Notes under the pieces: generated by a model
What the model was told of the DNA's origin: nothing
What the model saw: the letters and a program-made list of their open reading frames with translations, nothing else
The model's database searches: none
Position numbers and translations under genes: made by a program
Shown: in pieces, positions 12,499-31,392 of the stretch
Numbering within the stretch: position 1 is the stretch's first letter
How the letters are laid out: each line of letters begins with the position of its first letter
Source of the DNA: a virus
IMG/VR virus record: IMGVR_UViG_3300025138_000132
Location: 1 to 36,469 of that record
Strand: one strand, 5' to 3'
DNA: 36,469 bases

Positions 12499-12865
12499 AT
12501 ACGTAAAAGCAATTAATACCTCAAAGAAAGACATTATGGTTGATGATCTAGCTGAAAAAGAATATCCAGCTTTTCTCGTTAATCGATCTCTATCTTATTT
12601 TCAAGATACAATACTCTATGCGAATGAAATGAATATACAACATCACATAGATAGTCGCCTTCAGTTTGATTTTTTTATAAATATAATTAAGAAGAAAAAT
12701 CGATTTTCAAAATGGCTTAAGCCAACTGAGATCGATAATATTGAAATAATTAAAGAATATTATGGATATAGCAATGAGAAAGCTAAATCTGTATTAGCAT
12801 TGTTCGGACAGAATGAGATCGATGCATTAAGACAAAGGATTTACAAAGGTGGAAGATCAAAATAA
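12485..12865 (+). CDS. 62: gp62 clamp-loader small subunit
   Basis: A 126-residue protein beginning MNPFEYVKAINTSKKD, with LVNRSLSYFQDTILYANEMN and FSKWLKP, a pattern I recognise from gp62 of marine T4-like phages. They are much shorter than T4 gp62 (187 aa). gp62 completes the gp44/62 clamp loader. I chose the ATG at 12485, which has GGGAGG at 12469-12474; upstream in-frame ATGs at 12452 and 12476 have worse spacing. It overlaps the preceding gene by 14 bp and the regA start by 17 bp. Confidence 0.85.
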   Translation: MNPFEYVKAINTSKKDIMVDDLAEKEYPAFLVNRSLSYFQDTILYANEMNIQHHIDSRLQFDFFINIIKKKNRFSKWLKPTEIDNIEIIKEYYGYSNEKAKSVLALFGQNEIDALRQRIYKGGRSK

Positions 12866-13280
12866 TAACCAAATAACAGACTGGTCTCCGGCATCTATGC
12901 TCGAGATTACGTTAAACGAACCAGACGATTTTTTAAAGGTAAGAGAAACTCTTACTAGAATAGGAGTAGCTTCGAGAAAAGACAACAAGCTATTTCAATC
13001 GTGTCATATTCTGCATAAACAAGGCAGATACTTTATAGTCCATTTTAAAGAACTATTTCTATTAGACGGAAAGCCTTCTAATTTAATAGTTAATGATGTA
13101 CAAAGAAGAAATACAATTGCAACTCTACTCGCAGATTGGGGATTACTATCCATGATTAAGCCAGAAGAAGCAAAGGATATAGCACCTCTACGTCAGATTA
13201 AGGTAATACCTTATAAAGACAAACAACTATGGGAACTATGTCCAAAATATAATATTGGTAATAATCAATCTGAAGATTGA
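12849..13280 (+). CDS. regA: RegA translational repressor
   Basis: Residues from MLEITLNEPDDFLKVRETL onward match T4 RegA (122 aa) closely, including RIGVAS, QSCHILHKQGRYFIVHFKE, the LLADWGL segment and the ending CPKYNIGN. RegA binds around start codons of many early mRNAs and represses translation. Two starts are possible: GTG at 12849 (143 aa, overlaps gene 62) and ATG at 12897 (127 aa), which coincides with the T4 N-terminus. The longer form is listed because an AAAGG lies near the GTG; the shorter one may be the real protein. Order 45-44-62-regA-43 is as in T4. Confidence 0.93.
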   Translation: MEDQNNNQITDWSPASMLEITLNEPDDFLKVRETLTRIGVASRKDNKLFQSCHILHKQGRYFIVHFKELFLLDGKPSNLIVNDVQRRNTIATLLADWGLLSMIKPEEAKDIAPLRQIKVIPYKDKQLWELCPKYNIGNNQSED

Positions 13281-14094: not shown

Positions 14095-14123
14095 TTTACA
14101 TTTGACTTGAAATGTGGTATAAT
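14095..14123 (+). promoter_or_regulatory. Sigma70-type promoter P5 for gene 43 (leaderless)
   Basis: TTTACA at 14095-14100, 17-bp spacer, TATAAT at 14118-14123 with GG before. The expected start, 7 nt after the -10, is 14130; the polymerase ATG is at 14131. No ribosome-binding site can fit on this mRNA. Confidence 0.85.
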
Positions 14124-14130
14124 ATATATA

Positions 14131-16671
14131 ATGACAAATTTTTACACTAACGTTACTCGCTATGGAAATACTCTGCTTTACCGTGGAATAGAAAACGGTA
14201 AACGAGCTACCAAACGCGTTAAATACAAACCAAGACTTTACGTTACTACGAATCGGCCGACTGAATGGCATGCTCTTAATGGACAGCCAGTAGGAGAAGT
14301 TGAATTTGATTCTATGCGTGATGCTAAAGAATGGATTGATGAAAAGAAACATATTGTCGGTCTTGATCTTCATGGCCAAGTTCGATATGTCTCAGCATTT
14401 ATCAATGACAAGTTTCCAGGCAAAATCGAATTCGATCGTAATAAGATTAATGTAACTACAATTGATATTGAAGTACAATCTGACGACGGCTTTCCTCAAC
14501 CTGAAGATGCAGCATATCCAATTACAGCTATCTGTCTCAAAAACAACATTGACAATACTTACTATGTCTGGGGTTGTGGAGACTATGATGTTAAAAAGAC
14601 TCTTATGAAAACTAACAGAGTCATATACAAGCAGTTCGAAAACGAATCGCTACTCTTGCATGATTTTCTTGAACATTGGTCTAAAGAATCAAATACTCCT
14701 GACGTCTTAACTGGCTGGAACGTTCGTTTCTTTGATTTACCTTATATCGTAAATCGTATCAAAAGACTTATTGGCGAAGAACAAATCTATAAGCTATCGC
14801 CGTGGGGCAAGTCTCTAAAAGGTCATGCTTTCCAAGATGACAGACCTAGTTCTAAGTTTGGACGCGAACAAGCTGGATATAGAATACAAGGGATATCTGT
14901 TATCGATTATCTAGAGCTCTTTCAAAAGTTTGGATACTCTTACGGCCCACAAGAAACATATAAACTTGATCACATAGCTAATGTTGTTCTTGGCGAAAAG
15001 AAACTATCTTACGATGAGTATCATGATCTCTTTTCTCTATATAAACATAACTATCAAAAGTTTATTGATTATAATATTAAAGACGTAGAACTCGTTGATC
15101 GACTCGAAGATAAGCTTGGTCTTATTACGCTTGCTGTAACTATGGCTTATCAAGCTGGAGTTAATTATACTGATACCTTTGGTACTACAGCTATCTGGGA
15201 TAGTATCATATATCGACAACTAAATGACAAAAAAGTAGCTATTCCTTTTGCTGAAGATAAGCACAAAACAATGTATCCAGGCGGCTATGTAAAAGATCCT
15301 CATGTAGGAATGCATGAATGGGTTACTAGTTTCGATTTGAATTCTCTATATCCTTCAATTATTATGCAGTACAATATGTCTCCAGAGACTATTGCTAACG
15401 GCATGACTGAACAAGTTAATGTTGATGGATTACTATTAGATAATAAACCCGTACGTACAAAAGACATGGCTCTTGCTGCGAACGGTCAGTATTTCAGAAC
15501 TGATAAGAAAGGTATACTACCTGAAATCATCGATGAAATGTACACAGAACGTGTTGAGATTAAGAATGCTATGATTCAAGCTCAACAACAACTACAACTC
15601 ATAGATAAAAATGATAAACAAGAATTATACAAAATTGAAAGGGATATTGCCATCAATGAAAATCGACAAATGGCAATTAAAATTCTCCTTAATTCTCTTT
15701 ATGGTGCTCTCGGCAATCGTTATTTTCGATTCTTCGATCAGAGAATTGCAGAAGCCATTACCCTCACCGGACAGCTTACAATTCGATGGGCCGAATACTC
15801 CATCAATACTTACCTCAACAAAGTGTTACAACCAGCCAAACCCAAGGATTACGTACTTGCAATCGACACGGACTCTTTGTATGTTGGCTTAGGCGACTTA
15901 GTCGATAAAATCAATCCTTCTGATCCTACCAGCTTCTTAGATAAGGCTGCATCAGAAATGCTCGAACCAGTTTTAGCACAGTCTTATGATAGACTATATG
16001 CTAAACTCGGAGGCATCGATAATCGAATGGTCATGAAACGTGAAGCAATTGCAGATCGTGGTATATGGACAGCTAAGAAAAGATATATTCTCAATGTACA
16101 TGACAATGAAGGTGTACGATATGCTGAGCCTAAGCTTAAAATCATGGGCATTGAAGCTATCAAGTCATCTACTCCTGCTCCATGCAGAGATGCTCTAAAA
16201 AAGATCTTCAATGTAATCATAACAGCTAACGAATCAGATACTCAACTAGCTATTGATCAATTTAAAGGCTATTTCAGGACTCTTAATCCTGATGAGATTG
16301 CTTTTCCACGTGGAGTAACTAAAGTAAAACAATTCAAAGGTACTGATACTCTCTACAAAAAGGGTACACCAATTCATGTTCGTGGTAGTTTACTCTATAA
16401 CCACATGTTATCTGACTTGTCATTACAAAAGAAATACGAAAAGATTAAAAACGGAGAAAAGATTAAGTTTATCTATCTTCGTACTCCAAATCCAATTCAT
16501 GAAAATGTCATATCGTTTCCAACGTATCTGCCTGATGAATTTAATTTGCATAAATATATAGACTACGATACACAATTTCAAAAGACTTTCCTCGATCCAA
16601 TTGAGCCGATCCTGGAAGCAATAGGCTGGTCTTCCGAAGAACGTTCTACATTAGATGAATTCTTTGCATAA
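14131..16671 (+). CDS. 43: gp43 family B DNA polymerase
   Basis: From the ATG at 14131 the protein has 846 residues (T4 gp43: 898). The exonuclease DIE motif is at residues 112-114, as in T4. Exo II contains [12 protein letters not shown]. Polymerase motif A is [10 protein letters not shown], motif B is [12 protein letters not shown] and motif C is AIDTDSLYV. The ending [12 protein letters not shown] is T4-like. All catalytic aspartates are present, so both polymerase and proofreading should be active. An in-frame TTG at 14107 would extend it, but the promoter -10 box lies within that extension and T4 alignment supports MTNFYTNV as the N-terminus. The mRNA from P5 should be leaderless. Confidence 0.97.
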
Positions 16672-16677
16672 TAATCC

Positions 16678-16706
16678 TTTACAAATGGCTCAAAGTATGG
16701 TATAAT
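16678..16706 (+). promoter_or_regulatory. Sigma70-type promoter P6 for the Sm-like operon (leaderless)
   Basis: TTTACA at 16678-16683, 17-bp spacer, TATAAT at 16701-16706 with GG before. Expected start 16713 is the A of the start codon. Confidence 0.85.
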
Positions 16707-16712
16707 ATAACT

Positions 16713-17012
16713 ATGAAAATGAAAAAAGAAATCAAATTAGTCAGGCTATCGTCTGGTGAAGAAATTATAGCTAATGTGGAAACATATGATAACCACGTTA
16801 AGTTATACGATGGGATCGTCATGATTCCTGCTGGTGAAGGCAAAATTGGCTTTATGCCGTGGATGCCTTATACAAAAGCTGCAGATGGACTGCTTATTAA
16901 TAATAAATGGATTCTATTTGTAATTGAACCAGTCGGAGATATGATTGATCAATTTAAACAGGCAACAAGTCCTATAGACTTGAGCCAATCAAAGGGTAAA
17001 ATACAGATATGA
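16713..17012 (+). CDS. Sm-like (LSm-fold) phage protein, copy 2
   Basis: A 99-residue protein with the same core as the gene at 1727: VRLSSGEEIIANV, then a G-K-I-GFMPWMPYT segment, but without the acidic tail. It is almost entirely the small beta-barrel domain. RNA binding is inferred from fold relatives. A second ATG occurs at 16719. There is no ribosome-binding sequence, and the predicted transcription start is the start codon itself. The gene ends in a 4-bp overlap with the MazG-like gene, so it leads an operon. Confidence 0.72.
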   Translation: MKMKKEIKLVRLSSGEEIIANVETYDNHVKLYDGIVMIPAGEGKIGFMPWMPYTKAADGLLINNKWILFVIEPVGDMIDQFKQATSPIDLSQSKGKIQI

Positions 17013-17413
17013 GTATGAACTGGCCACAAGATATCACAGAAATGCAAACCGTATACGGTACGCGAGACTGGGTAGCGGCAAATAAAGATAAACTAGTTCA
17101 GTTTTTGAACTTTAGAGCTGATTTTCTACAAGAAGAATTAGATGAAACTAAAAGAGCGATTTTAGCTGAAGATGCTGAAGAAATCGTTGATGGTCTTATT
17201 GATCTTTGCGTAGTAGCAATCGGTACTCTCGATGCATTTGGCGTCGACGCTCATAAAGCTTGGAATGAAGTTTTAATAGCAAACATGGATAAATCAGTTG
17301 GTGTAAAAGAGTCAAGGCCTAATCCACTTGGACTACCAGATCTCGTTAAAGGAGATGACTGGGAACCACCATCACACAAAGGTAATTATGGCGATCTCCC
17401 TAACAATTTTTGA
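17009..17413 (+). CDS. MazG-like NTP pyrophosphohydrolase
   Basis: A 134-residue all-alpha NTP-PPase. The metal-binding pattern is visible as FLQEELDETKRAI followed by EEIVDGLIDLCVVAIG and NEVLIANMDK. This group hydrolyses (d)NTPs to monophosphates and is often labelled phosphoribosyl-ATP pyrophosphohydrolase-like in marine phages. Here it could trim host or unmodified nucleotides (for example dCTP, since a modified-cytosine pathway is encoded downstream and no gp56-type dCTPase is seen), but the substrate is inference. Overlaps both neighbours. Confidence 0.8.
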   Translation: MSMNWPQDITEMQTVYGTRDWVAANKDKLVQFLNFRADFLQEELDETKRAILAEDAEEIVDGLIDLCVVAIGTLDAFGVDAHKAWNEVLIANMDKSVGVKESRPNPLGLPDLVKGDDWEPPSHKGNYGDLPNNF

Positions 17414-18305
17414 CAGTATTTATGATAATACAACGATTAAAAGAATGGACTACGAGTCATTTGAAGAATTCGAATCAGTCATCTATAGACTTGCCGAATC
17501 CACCAAATATCGTACAAAGTCTGAAGCACCTCTCATCAGTCCTGCTATATATCTGCCTGATACTACTCGGGCTAACGATAATGTGGTTGCTTGGGGCGGC
17601 TTTGGTATTCTCGATATTGATAACTTTAGCGGTGATATAAAAGAAATTGAATCTAAGTATGAGAGATATAAATATATTTGTTATTCTACTGCAAGTTCTA
17701 GTTTACATGAGCCTCGCTTTAGGTTGGTATTTCCTTTAACCGAAAACGTTAATAAGGATAATATCAAACATTTCTGGTTTGCTCTTAATAAGGAAATCGG
17801 CGATATAGCAGATGCTCAAACTAAAGATTTGAGTCGTATGTATTATATACCAGCAAAGTATAAAGATTCATTTAACTTTATATTTACGCATGATGGTGAT
17901 ATTATGGATCCCAATGAATTGATGTCAAAACACAAATATGTTTTACCTGAAGAAAGCTTTTATGAAAGACTTCCAAAAGCTATTCAAGAAGGATTACGAA
18001 AGCATAGAGAAAATTCTCTAAATAACAAATCATATTCATGGACAGGATATAAAGACTGTCCTTTTGTCAACAAACGACAAATAGAAGAATACAAAGTTTT
18101 AAACGATGGTTGGTATTACAAGCTTTATCAGATAATGGTATCTGTTGCTGGTAATGCTGTAAGCAAAGGTTATCCTATAACAGCAAAAGAAGTTGAATTT
18201 ATAATTCGAGATCTTGATGCTGATTGTGGCAATTGGTATCTTAAAAGACCAATAGATAAAGAAGCTGAAAGAGCTATCGAGTTTGTTTTTAGAAAAAATA
18301 TATAG
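17388..18305 (+). CDS. Archaeo-eukaryotic-primase-like (prim-pol type) protein
   Basis: From the ATG at 17388 (AAAGG 6 bases upstream) the protein has 305 residues. The N-terminal part has WGGFGILDIDNFSGD with a DxD at residues 76/78, then YICYSTASSSLHEPRFRLVFPL, and DLSRMYYIPAKY near 148. This order (DxD, Ser-rich strand, R-x-R strand, D-x-SR..Y.P) is that of AEP/prim-pol proteins of plasmids and phages. The C-terminal 100 residues look like a helical primase accessory domain. No DnaG-like gp61 primase is seen in the window, so it might prime for gp41. Family assignment is by pattern only. Confidence 0.55.
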   Translation: MAISLTIFDSIYDNTTIKRMDYESFEEFESVIYRLAESTKYRTKSEAPLISPAIYLPDTTRANDNVVAWGGFGILDIDNFSGDIKEIESKYERYKYICYSTASSSLHEPRFRLVFPLTENVNKDNIKHFWFALNKEIGDIADAQTKDLSRMYYIPAKYKDSFNFIFTHDGDIMDPNELMSKHKYVLPEESFYERLPKAIQEGLRKHRENSLNNKSYSWTGYKDCPFVNKRQIEEYKVLNDGWYYKLYQIMVSVAGNAVSKGYPITAKEVEFIIRDLDADCGNWYLKRPIDKEAERAIEFVFRKNI

Positions 18306-18314
18306 GAGTATATT

Positions 18315-18833
18315 ATGAAAAAGTTGTTTTATAAACACGTAATAAAGATTTGCGTATTAGTTACCTTACCATTATGGTTTGCGTTCTTTTCTCAAGTCGT
18401 TCAAGCTTATGAAGAAACTAATGATAGATTTTGTTTAGCTCAAAACATCTATTTTGAATCTGGTAATCAACCTTATGCTGGTAAAATAGCTGTAGCTCAT
18501 GTAACTTTAAATAGAGTTGAAGACTTACAGTTTCCAGAAACTATATGCGGAGTAGTATATCAAACAAAATCATATTATACTTCATGGAAAGGAGAACTAG
18601 TTCCGCACAGAGGAATGTGCCAATTCAGTTGGTATTGTGATGGAAAGTCAGATGAACCAAAAGATTCTAAGACATGGATAGAATCGATTCGAATAGCTGA
18701 TATTGCGTTAAACAATAATCAGAATGATATTACTGAAGGTTCCCTTTGGTATCATGCAACATATATAACCCCGTATTGGGCAGATCATTTAACAGAAGTT
18801 ATAACAATAGAAGACCATAGGTTTTACAAATAG
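18315..18833 (+). CDS. SleB-type cell-wall hydrolase with signal sequence
   Basis: A 172-residue protein. Residues 9-29 are hydrophobic and end in VVQA, a plausible signal-peptidase site after residue 31, so it is exported or acts as a signal-arrest endolysin. The rest matches the SleB/Hydrolase_2 family: FCLAQNIYFESGNQPYAGK with the catalytic Glu, VAHVTLNRV, then RGMCQFSWYCDG. It should cleave peptidoglycan for lysis. AGGAG precedes the ATG. No holin is recognised next to it; the 45- and 60-residue membrane proteins elsewhere are possible but unproven candidates. Confidence 0.85.
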   Translation: MKKLFYKHVIKICVLVTLPLWFAFFSQVVQAYEETNDRFCLAQNIYFESGNQPYAGKIAVAHVTLNRVEDLQFPETICGVVYQTKSYYTSWKGELVPHRGMCQFSWYCDGKSDEPKDSKTWIESIRIADIALNNNQNDITEGSLWYHATYITPYWADHLTEVITIEDHRFYK

Positions 18834-18842
18834 GAGATAGAT

Positions 18843-19037
18843 ATGACAACAGGTGAATACCATACTTATGAAAAAGGCAACAGAGTAGCAATCGTTATGA
18901 AAAATAACGAAGGCTTTTATGTAAATCTTTTTGAAAGCAATAAGTTAATAGAAACCAGACAAGTGTATAACCATTCAGAACAGTATGCCGAAAATGTAGC
19001 AGAAAACTGGGTAGAACAAATATTATTAACAGAATGA
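18843..19037 (+). CDS. Small hypothetical protein
   Basis: A 64-residue soluble protein that I do not recognise. Residues 12-40 look like a beta-meander (RVAIVMKNNEGFYVNLFES), and the last third is helical and acidic. AGGAG lies upstream of the ATG, and its stop overlaps the next start (ATGA), so it is part of the P6 operon. Confidence 0.6.
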   Translation: MTTGEYHTYEKGNRVAIVMKNNEGFYVNLFESNKLIETRQVYNHSEQYAENVAENWVEQILLTE

Positions 19038-19480
19038 TAGATTTTACACTTGATGATATAAACCCTATTCAACTTCATGATAGAGCTTTAGAAGAAGCTA
19101 AAAAAATTAAATCAAATAAATCGTTTAAAAATAGCGGTAGAACTTGGGAAGATTTACTTAGACAAACTCGTAGAGGCCATGCTGCAGAAATCTATCTTAT
19201 AGAAGTATTAGGATATAAAGATGATGAACGAGAATACAAAGACGTTATCGATCCAGCTGGAAATTTTGTTGAAGTTAAAGTAACTAATTCAGAAAGAAAT
19301 ATACCATTCATGATCGAAAGATTTGCTAATATAAAGCTAACTGAAGAGTGGAAAGATTGGCCAGACCATCTTATAATTTTTATTAATCCTATTGATTCAT
19401 CAGAATATACTTATAATTCTAGATGGCAATGGATAAACAACCAATGGAGAGAGAACCATACAACAGATGAAAATAAATGA
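19034..19480 (+). CDS. Candidate PD-(D/E)XK-type nuclease
   Basis: A 148-residue protein with a pattern of the restriction-nuclease fold: a helix with GHAAEIYLIEVLG (E52), then D70/D73 in KDVIDPAG, then EVK at 80-82, as expected for E...D...ExK catalytic residues. After this comes an alpha/beta segment (DHLIIFI). It could attack host DNA or process phage DNA; no family name can be assigned with certainty. Last gene of the P6 operon, 9 bp before the next -35 box. Confidence 0.5.
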   Translation: MIDFTLDDINPIQLHDRALEEAKKIKSNKSFKNSGRTWEDLLRQTRRGHAAEIYLIEVLGYKDDEREYKDVIDPAGNFVEVKVTNSERNIPFMIERFANIKLTEEWKDWPDHLIIFINPIDSSEYTYNSRWQWINNQWRENHTTDENK

Positions 19481-19489
19481 AAATAATCC

Positions 19490-19518
19490 TTTACATTTCA
19501 TTGAGACTGTGGTATAAT
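19490..19518 (+). promoter_or_regulatory. Sigma70-type promoter P7 for the nucleotide-modification genes (leaderless)
   Basis: TTTACA at 19490-19495, 17-bp spacer, TATAAT at 19513-19518 with GG before. Expected start 19525; ATG at 19526. Confidence 0.85.
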
Positions 19519-19525
19519 ATATAAT

Positions 19526-19861
19526 ATGAAAGAAAGTTTAAAAGTGTTACAAGAATGTGCAGAAATGCAAACAAAAAAATCTCAAGATTATCAAAGTCAT
19601 GAGTCGACAGTACTTCAAGCGATGCATTATCGCAGAGGTATCGATACAATTCATGATATCTTAATCGGCAAGATGCAGAGAGCGACTTCAATAATTGAAT
19701 CAGGTAACGAACCTAATTATGAATCGCTAGAAGATACCTACAAAGATATGGTTAACTATGCAAGTTTTGCAGTATCATATATTCGTGGTAAAATGGAAGG
19801 ACAAGATCCTGAACGAGACATGTTTAATAAAAGGAAAATTGATGTATCAGAACACGACTAA
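19526..19861 (+). CDS. DUF1599 / nucleotide modification-associated domain 1 protein
   Basis: A 111-residue helical protein. KKSQDYQSHE near the N-terminus, then DILIGKMQRATSIIE and YKDMVNYASFAV fit the DUF1599 pattern (K..DY, K..R, D...Y), a MazG-like helical family named for its association with DNA base-modification gene clusters. A nucleotide-pyrophosphatase-like role is plausible but unproven. The mRNA from P7 should start one base before the ATG. It overlaps the dCMP hydroxymethylase gene by 20 bp. Confidence 0.65.
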   Translation: MKESLKVLQECAEMQTKKSQDYQSHESTVLQAMHYRRGIDTIHDILIGKMQRATSIIESGNEPNYESLEDTYKDMVNYASFAVSYIRGKMEGQDPERDMFNKRKIDVSEHD

Positions 19862-23772: not shown

Positions 23773-24494
23773 TGGAATTAAGAGAATATAAAGGCGTTCT
23801 TCATCGAAAAGGAAATAGAACAGATAGAAACATGATCAACGATTGTAGAAATAACTACGAAGATTTTAGATTTTTCCCTGGGTCAGTAGTAGTCGATTTC
23901 GGAGCAAACATCGGAGGATTTGCTCATATGTGTAAGAATGGAAACGTAGATGAATATATTGGGTATGAAGCTGATCCAGAAAATTTTGAGATTCTAGCTA
24001 AGAATTTTCCAAGTGAAAAGGGTATTATTCATAGAGCTGCAGTATCTCATTTAGATGATGAGACATTAACATTTTATAGAACTCCTACAGATCAAGGAAC
24101 ATGCTCAGGATCTGTAACTCCTAATTATCGTTCAAAGAAAAGAAGAACATTAAGATATGAAGTAACTAATTATAATATAGATAAAGTACTCGATGAGCAT
24201 AGACCAACGCATTTAAAGATGGATATTGAAGGAACAGAAGCGCATTGGTTAGAACAGAACAATGGTATATTACCGAGATACATAGAAGAATTTGCACTAG
24301 AATTACATAATAAATCAAACGTTTACAAATTCATGGAAATGTGGTATAATAATATAATAAAGGATTTTAAGATAGTAAGAGCACGTGCAGATTATGGATT
24401 TGAAAATGATAACTTCTGGGAATTTCCAGAGCTTGAGATTGCAGGAAGCGGTTCTCTTTTTGGTGTAGATATATTCATGAGAAGAAGAAAATGA
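23772..24494 (+). CDS. FkbM-family SAM-dependent methyltransferase
   Basis: A 240-residue Class I methyltransferase of the FkbM type: SVVVDFGANIGGFA (SAM-binding motif I), YIGYEADPENFEIL (acidic residue of motif II), then THLKMDIEGTEAHWL and a C-terminal strand pair ending GVDIFMRRRK. FkbM enzymes usually O-methylate sugars or similar hydroxyl groups. In this cluster it may decorate a sugar or inositol attached to DNA; that is inference. The stop of the previous gene overlaps its ATG by one base. A sigma70-type promoter lies inside it at 24322-24350. Confidence 0.85.
   Translation: MELREYKGVLHRKGNRTDRNMINDCRNNYEDFRFFPGSVVVDFGANIGGFAHMCKNGNVDEYIGYEADPENFEILAKNFPSEKGIIHRAAVSHLDDETLTFYRTPTDQGTCSGSVTPNYRSKKRRTLRYEVTNYNIDKVLDEHRPTHLKMDIEGTEAHWLEQNNGILPRYIEEFALELHNKSNVYKFMEMWYNNIIKDFKIVRARADYGFENDNFWEFPELEIAGSGSLFGVDIFMRRRK
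24322..24350 (+). promoter_or_regulatory. Sigma70-type promoter P8, inside the FkbM gene
   Basis: TTTACA at 24322-24327, 17-bp spacer, TATAAT at 24345-24350 with GTGG before. It matches the intergenic copies although it must also encode protein. It would express the following genes up to the C5-methyltransferase early. Confidence 0.75.
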
Positions 24495-31008: not shown

Positions 31009-31200
31009 ATAATGACAAACGCAGAAACGCGTACGTGCCACGGAGCTGATGAGCGCAAATACGATAGATTGCAGAGATGCATTGCCTCTAAAGAGGAACT
31101 TGAGCTTGGTACCGCTGAAGGTGATTTCGCTGTTATGTCAACGTGATGTCGAGCACAGTGGATTGACTGGGAAGGGATGAGATAGACCTTCCACCTTATT
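31009..31200 (+). ncRNA. Candidate structured RNA transcribed from P10
   Basis: The roughly 190 nt after P10 are clearly richer in G and C than the flanks. They contain several small hairpins: ACGC/GCGT around AGAAAC near 31018-31031, TGCA-GAGA-TGCA (a GNRA loop), CCTC-TAAA-GAGG, and a final GGAAGG (31170-31175) / CCTTCC (31187-31192) stem that may end the transcript. A 44-residue frame lies within it, so it may instead be, or also be, an mRNA. No known RNA family is recognised. Confidence 0.4.
31012..31146 (+). CDS. Possible leaderless 44-residue micro-protein
   Basis: An ATG at 31012 opens 44 codons to a TGA at 31144-31146. It reads MTNAETRTCHGADERKYDRL and onward, a polar, charged peptide with no known match. 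The predicted transcription start is only about 3 nt upstream, so there is no ribosome-binding site. Codon use (CGT, CGC, ACG, TGC) is unlike the AGA-rich neighbours, which argues for an RNA gene or for an acquired gene. Listed as the alternative reading of the structured RNA. Confidence 0.35.
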   Translation: MTNAETRTCHGADERKYDRLQRCIASKEELELGTAEGDFAVMST

Positions 31201-31239: not shown

Positions 31240-31392
31240 ATGACAACAGCATTTTTAGTTAAAGCAAAAGACAAAAAAGACGAAAAAAAAGAATTTAGAT
31301 ATTTATACGAGTCTTTAAGATCTGCAATAGAATTCCAAACTGGAATGGCCAACCGCGGGTTTAAAACTACACTAGAACGCATAGAAATATGA
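31240..31392 (+). CDS. Small basic hypothetical protein (50 aa)
   Basis: Begins MTTAFLVKAKDKKDEKKEF and continues FRYLYESLRSAIEFQTG to RIEI. Lys/Glu-rich and probably soluble. TTGGAG lies 6-10 nt before the ATG. The stop overlaps the next start (ATGA). No function recognised. Confidence 0.6.
   Translation: MTTAFLVKAKDKKDEKKEFRYLYESLRSAIEFQTGMANRGFKTTLERIEI

Follow-up and report, generated by a model that had tools for sequence, protein, structure and literature searches.

How is translation begun on an early phage mRNA when the start codon lies only six or seven nucleotides (nt) beyond the -10 box of the promoter? The question is raised by three promoters, P5, P6 and P7, which precede gene 43 (DNA polymerase), an Sm-like gene and a DUF1599 gene in a 36,469-base stretch of viral DNA (IMG/VR virus record IMGVR_UViG_3300025138_000132, G+C 34%). 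This stretch was analysed at its full length and is called the window here. Its phage belongs to the T4 superfamily and is one of the sea-dwelling T4 relatives. The window gp43 was at best 52% identical to that of an annotated phage (Phage C48C1), followed by cyanophages at about 47%, and relatives in IMG/VR reached 92% identity. A host among the Rhodobacteraceae had been considered, gp43 relatives of 67% identity being found on two contigs of such a metagenome-assembled genome, and was dropped because the binning of phage contigs is unreliable.

The P5, P6 and P7 transcripts are, from what their sequence predicts, very probably leaderless, or carry a leader of at most about 3 nt. The three would act as sigma70-type early promoters on which transcription begins on, or about 1 nt from, the A of the start codon, and their mRNAs would be translated by 70S ribosomes through the 5'-terminal-AUG route. 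Sister promoters in the same phage would yield mRNAs with leaders of about 20-60 nt and Shine-Dalgarno (SD) sites.

The P5, P6 and P7 start sites

The strict pattern of the promoter family (TTTACA-N12-TRTRG-TATAAT) matched the window 11 times and 100 dinucleotide shuffles not once. These 11 near-identical elements have the sequence of T4-type early (sigma70) promoters, with the GTTTAC-type -35 box described for T4 by Nolan et al. (PMC1524935), a 17-nt spacer and an extended TATAAT. The late-promoter motif TATAAATA (12 occurrences in the window, with 8.2 expected) was uninformative on P5-P7.

P5 (14095-14123, plus strand, as are all promoters and genes below unless stated) consists of TTTACA at 14095-14100, a 17-nt spacer ending in the TGTGG extension, and TATAAT at 14118-14123. 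A 7-nt discriminator (14124-14130) separates it from the ATG at 14131 of gene 43 (14131-16671; family B DNA polymerase, Pfam PF00136/PF03104), and the predicted transcription start is 14130 or 14131. P6 (16678-16706, with boxes at 16678-16683 and 16701-16706) lies 6 nt ahead of the ATG at 16713 of the Sm-like gene (16713-17012), and P7 (19490-19518, with boxes at 19490-19495 and 19513-19518) lies 7 nt ahead of the ATG at 19526 of the DUF1599 gene (19526-19861; nucleotide modification associated domain 1, PF07659), which has orthologues among the relatives. These gaps of 7, 6 and 7 nt agree with the preliminary description of the locus, which had placed the start codons 7-8 nt past the -10 box. 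It had also held that no SD could exist on these transcripts, and a single scanner, used to score the SD status of all window promoters, found no SD site ahead of the P5, P6, P7 or P10 starts.

The contrasting class in the window is made up of P1 (2256-2284; leader of 35 nt with GGAG), P2 (6035-6063; 32 nt, AAGGAG), P3 (8434-8462; 58 nt, TAAGGAG), P4 (11055-11083; 23 nt, AAGGA) and P9 (27070-27098; 30 nt, GGAG). The expectation that the remaining promoters of the family would have leaders with GGAG-type sites held for these five and failed for two of the 11, P8 (24322) and a minus-strand promoter (2189, without a clear gene), which belong to neither class.

Substitution counts against the two relatives of 92% identity (G010 and G011) supported the prediction that coding starts at the P5, P6 and P7 ATGs, because the substitutions fall mostly at third codon positions. 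The counts by codon position were 8/2/32 for gp43 (first 300 nt), 3/1/13 against G010 and 4/1/13 against G011 for the Sm-like gene (first 200 nt), and 1/0/24 and 1/0/23 for the DUF1599 gene (first 300 nt). The product of the Sm-like gene, modelled with AlphaFold2 (mean pLDDT 83.5), is predicted to share the fold of 3BY7, a structure whose annotation notes a similarity to Sm/LSm-like RNA-binding proteins (Foldseek E 6e-7, TM 0.69-0.74 by query length, 27-29% identity); its match to Sm/LSm proteins themselves was weaker, and the likeness bears on the product, not on the start. Sm-like proteins frequently bind RNA.

The position at which transcription should start was sought in 62 distinct SD-led promoters of the family. 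The seventh nucleotide past the -10 box was an A in 34 of them and the sixth a pyrimidine in 46, and a pyrimidine-A step occurred at nt 6-7 in 29, at nt 5-6 in 11 and at nt 7-8 in 12. Such a profile is as expected for a transcription start at the seventh base. With that start, the P6 mRNA would begin at the A of its ATG, and the P5 and P7 mRNAs one base ahead of theirs. Comparison of P1 (ataactATA) and P6 (ataactATG) showed that the two are identical up to a single base at +3, so that the initiator of such a promoter appears to be one step away from a start codon. Of 31 distinct sequences with gaps of 9-11 nt, 84% have an A three bases ahead of the start codon, compared with 68% in the leadered class, which points weakly to 3-nt leaders in that group. 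A start on, or a few nucleotides from, the start codon is predicted by the 6-7 nt gaps and the initiator profile together.

Start distances behind the promoter family in IMG/VR

IMG/VR was then scanned by the promoter alone, the outcome being independent of the downstream sequence. The scan covered at least 118 stretches, whose rows are related, and all counts from it apply to the matches listed. There were 141 distinct promoters with a 150-base margin (143 with a 100-base margin). For the 141, the distance to the first open reading frame (ORF) beginning with ATG was 5-11 nt in 53, 12-18 nt in 1, 19-25 nt in 21, 26-32 nt in 16, 33-39 nt in 18, 40-46 nt in 8 and 47-53 nt in 3. In control TATAAT sequences without a -35 box, the first such ORF lay at 5-11 nt in 26 of 1473 and at 12-18 nt in 57 of 1473. 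The near class is thus enriched behind the promoters (53/141 versus 26/1473; Fisher p ~3e-41, with related rows counted as independent). An SD of at least four bases preceded 0 of the 53 starts at 5-11 nt and 49 of the 54 starts at 19-36 nt (143-promoter set). The coexistence of two discrete types of start in one phage, with P5-P7 leaderless or nearly so, had been proposed from the window; the geometry there supports it, and the IMG/VR comparison does so more strongly.

All starts of the near class were ATG. No GTG or TTG start was found at the leaderless place in the sample: among 19 non-ATG candidates that lack a near ATG, almost all had an SD-led start downstream; TTG is used by SD-led gp43 relatives. 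The restriction to AUG that is typical of leaderless genes was therefore seen throughout the sample, P8 of the window, with its ATA, being the exception.

The annotated ATGs might not be the true starts, with translation beginning instead at a later SD-led codon. This is true or likely in most Sm-like relatives, where the sequence reads ATGGAG...ATG, and it is possible at 6 of the 141 promoters. A near-class count taken from the broad set was rejected for this reason, some near distances being false, and the promoters were recounted with a filter for SD-led in-frame ATGs, which left 47 purely leaderless, 6 ambiguous, 67 SD-led and 21 other. For P5, P6 and P7 of the window such a displaced start is most improbable: no SD-led in-frame ATG follows closely after any of the three, the gp43 and DUF1599 starts align with the SD-led starts of relatives to about one residue, and the substitutions near the starts lie mostly at third positions.

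Grouping of the promoters by their proteins at 60% identity, with the 21 others left out, gave 66 subclusters, of which 38 were SD-led only, 20 leaderless only and 4 ambiguous only; 2 held leaderless and ambiguous members and 2 leaderless and SD-led members. The leaderless genes included gp43, UvsY (PF11056), NrdA (gap 10), a primase-like gene (gap 9), DUF1599, phrog_624 and a HAD-like gene. A gp55-like family, whose counterpart in C48C1 bears the annotation late sigma factor, was SD-led throughout the sample. So was a second family, which we take to be gp45. Our impression is that the leaderless set is biased to replication genes.

Real promoters could also coexist with protein made mainly from upstream read-through mRNA, by coupling or by SD-independent binding of 30S subunits at an unstructured AU-rich start. 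Translation from unstructured SD-less starts is an idea already published (PMC3121790). P6 and P7 directly follow a gene on the same strand with no strong hairpin between, and the window is rich in SD-less starts (19 of the 45 chosen). However, a read-through mRNA would be equally devoid of an SD at the P5-P7 starts, and the gp43 promoter is preceded by a hairpin in many relatives (G010, G006, L017, L021-L023, L030, L035 and L036), which in L021 and L022 is followed by a T run, as in a terminator; the window has the hairpin and no T run. Read-through also gives no reason for a spacing of 5-11 nt with a void at 12-18 nt, and we consider it improbable as the main source of these proteins.

Leader state among relatives

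A gp43 tree, unrooted as to gain versus loss, served to map the leader state of 66 proteins, 22 of them near, 42 leadered and 2 promoterless. The state required 5 changes, compared with group means of 18.8-19.8 for shuffled labels. The number was still 5 when the two promoterless sequences and nine loci without a -35 box were removed (55 sequences, 13 near; shuffled mean 11.9). The leader state is therefore distributed by clade on the gp43 tree and has switched about five times. In S-PM2 and Mosig, gp43 starts inside or right at the end of the preceding gene, which makes an own gp43 promoter a feature of the window's clade. The nine loci removed (L077-L083, L085 and L086; gp43 of about 44% identity) carry TGATATAATGTATGAATG, in which a -10-like box has its first bases in the stop codon of the preceding gene and lies 6 nt from the gp43 ATG.

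Comparison of P6 with its counterparts shows how a leaderless start could arise. Most of the relatives compared read TATAAT...ATGGAGAAAATAATG AAA or similar, with ATGGAG as the SD of a second ATG, and the window reads ATGAAAATGAAAAAAGAAATC AAA: it lacks that SD, and the second ATG is ATC. The loss of a leader, or of an SD-led start, would in this way bring the initiator region and the start codon into coincidence. At P7 the start codon is shared by the relatives, in most of which an SD leader precedes it. For the phrog_624 gene, gaps of 6-8 nt persist in relatives as distant as about 50% protein identity, other relatives being leadered. In this clade of marine T4-like phages, certain early genes (gp43, UvsY, NrdA, DUF1599, phrog_624 and others) would repeatedly have taken on the leaderless form and kept it stably within a lineage.

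Several observations weigh against a leaderless reading of these promoters or against its breadth. Absence of an SD is not special in the window, where an SD precedes 26 of 45 chosen starts and many of the others overlap the preceding gene. The initiator signal is not unique, a pyrimidine-A step being found also at nt 8-9 in 27 of the 62 SD-led promoters, and a T at -1 of the ATG was discarded as a proof that transcription begins on the A, because the leadered class has it too (69%). The transcription starts are predictions for an uncultured phage in an uncultured host, and the IMG/VR scan is a sample of related rows. The ATG that most Sm-like relatives have at 8-11 nt forms the beginning of the ATGGAG SD site, which confines the leaderless Sm-like gene to the window, G010 and G011/L010, that is, to the window's own subclade. 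Nine distant gp43 loci were scored as near without having a -35 box, and the leaderless place behind P8 holds ATA, not ATG.

A further explanation accepts the leaderless state and concerns its purpose: the near spacing would be compaction by deletion bias, giving leaderless mRNAs without a selected role. It is compatible with leaderless transcripts from P5-P7, and we give it a real if minor chance. The leader state flips among relatives and varies by gene within one genome, and overlapping genes are frequent in the window. Compaction alone, however, should give a continuum of distances, yet the interval of 12-18 nt holds 1 of 141 promoters; some families, such as phrog_624, hold 6-8 nt to about 50% protein identity, and genes such as gp43 and NrdA are involved. 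The preliminary description had taken the two modes of translation to suggest deliberate control. That goes beyond the data: the leader state varies between genes and between lineages, a pattern for which compaction, or a relaxed selection for leaders, would also account.

It seems to us rather unlikely that one promoter family serves two translation programmes, with initiator and start codon fused in gp43, UvsY, NrdA, DUF1599 and primase-like genes, and with the gp55-like sigma factor and others SD-led. If it did, the output of the fused genes would depend on 70S/free-AUG initiation and escape SD-directed control, and these genes would form a separate translational regulon, gained and lost gene by gene.

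P10 and P8 are doubtful cases. P10 (30974-31002) had been described as placing its start about 3 nt before an ATG. An ATG does lie at a gap of 9 nt (31012), with a predicted leader of 3 nt, but the 44-aa ORF that it opens (31012-31146) shows no coding signal (substitutions by codon position of 2/3/3 in 135 nt against G011), so its leaderless status is doubtful and P10 should be left out of the leaderless genes. An SD-led ORF lies farther along the P10 transcript, near 31240 (position counted by hand). The approximately 240 nt after P10 (31003-31240) are 92% conserved in G011, with substitutions that are not codon-like in the 135 nt tested, and could be an untranslated or structured RNA preceding that ORF. 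P8 (24322-24350) is of the leaderless type, with a gap of 6 nt to an ATA at 24357; the 45-aa ORF begins with ATG in G010 and G011, and the ATA of the window is a candidate for start-codon loss, a sequencing variant or a non-AUG start. The minus-strand promoter (at 2189, in the region 2120-2189) points away from P1 and has a G-rich transcript start; a similar divergent promoter is found in G010, G011, G006 and G002, and its transcript is a candidate small RNA.

Control of gp43 and known leaderless systems

In textbooks, T4 exemplifies how phages exert control at the ribosome binding site (RegA, RegB, gp32 and gp43). If a large marine sister group does without the leader on gp43 and other replication genes, it would have to control them by other means. 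In T4, the gene 43 operator is made up of a hairpin about 40 nt upstream together with mRNA sequence that overlaps the site of ribosome binding (PMC3014915). The P5 mRNA, for which control of gp43 synthesis is likewise at issue, would contain neither T4/RB69 element: the only strong hairpin found near P5 (14033-14068, z -3.8 versus mononucleotide shuffles) lies just upstream of the promoter and outside its transcript, and there is no SD. The earlier claim that a T4-type operator cannot be used for gp43 thus stands for P5 transcripts only. Some T4-related gp43s are described as lacking autoregulation, and RegA sites as overlapping the AUG itself (PMC3014915). Because of this overlap, and because the window has a regA homologue (12849-13280, PF01818), RegA could still act at leaderless AUGs. 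We had also considered that leaderless mRNAs, being without GGAG, might escape cleavage by RegB. The idea was dropped: of 10 records, T4 alone gave a hit for a RegB homologue (PF10715), and those from IMG/VR may be fragments.

Leaderless phage genes are of a known kind. A review names lambda cI as a leaderless mRNA (PMC9031893), and a paper on AR9 describes phage transcripts as often leaderless (PMC5312081). A full-text search of open-licence PMC papers, a collection outside which most subscription journals fall, found no report of leaderless mRNAs for T4-like phages or gp43. Near-identical promoters with and without leaders, together with orthologues in both states, would offer a natural experiment on the role of leaderless translation. 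Start callers that demand an SD may miss such starts.

Comparison with the early promoters of the Straboviridae (T4, RB69 and RB49) showed a shared GTTTAC-type -35 box, 17-nt spacing and TGTGGTATAAT-like -10 box, and the window promoters would likewise use host sigma70 (PMC1524935). In a similar scan, however, the T4 sites led for the most part to starts 20-39 nt beyond the -10 box, the majority with an SD, and 0 of 25 were at 5-11 nt, unlike in the window; near starts were found at 1 of 7 sites in the scanned part of C48C1, and KVP40, with 3 sites, was uninformative. Cluster O mycobacteriophages (Corndog group) are predicted to have SigA-like promoters whose +1 coincides with the first nucleotide of the start codon (PMC4351075); they differ from the present case in having mycobacterial hosts rich in leaderless genes, few such promoters and an unrelated phage background. 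Leaderless mRNAs have the start codon at the transcription start and no SD, and their translation route has been described (PMC9031893); in Sinorhizobium meliloti, 171 leaderless mRNAs were reported, all with AUG (PMC3616915). The starts predicted here from sequence resemble those of bacterial leaderless mRNAs in having no SD and in being AUG only, and they occur in replication genes of a T4-type phage.

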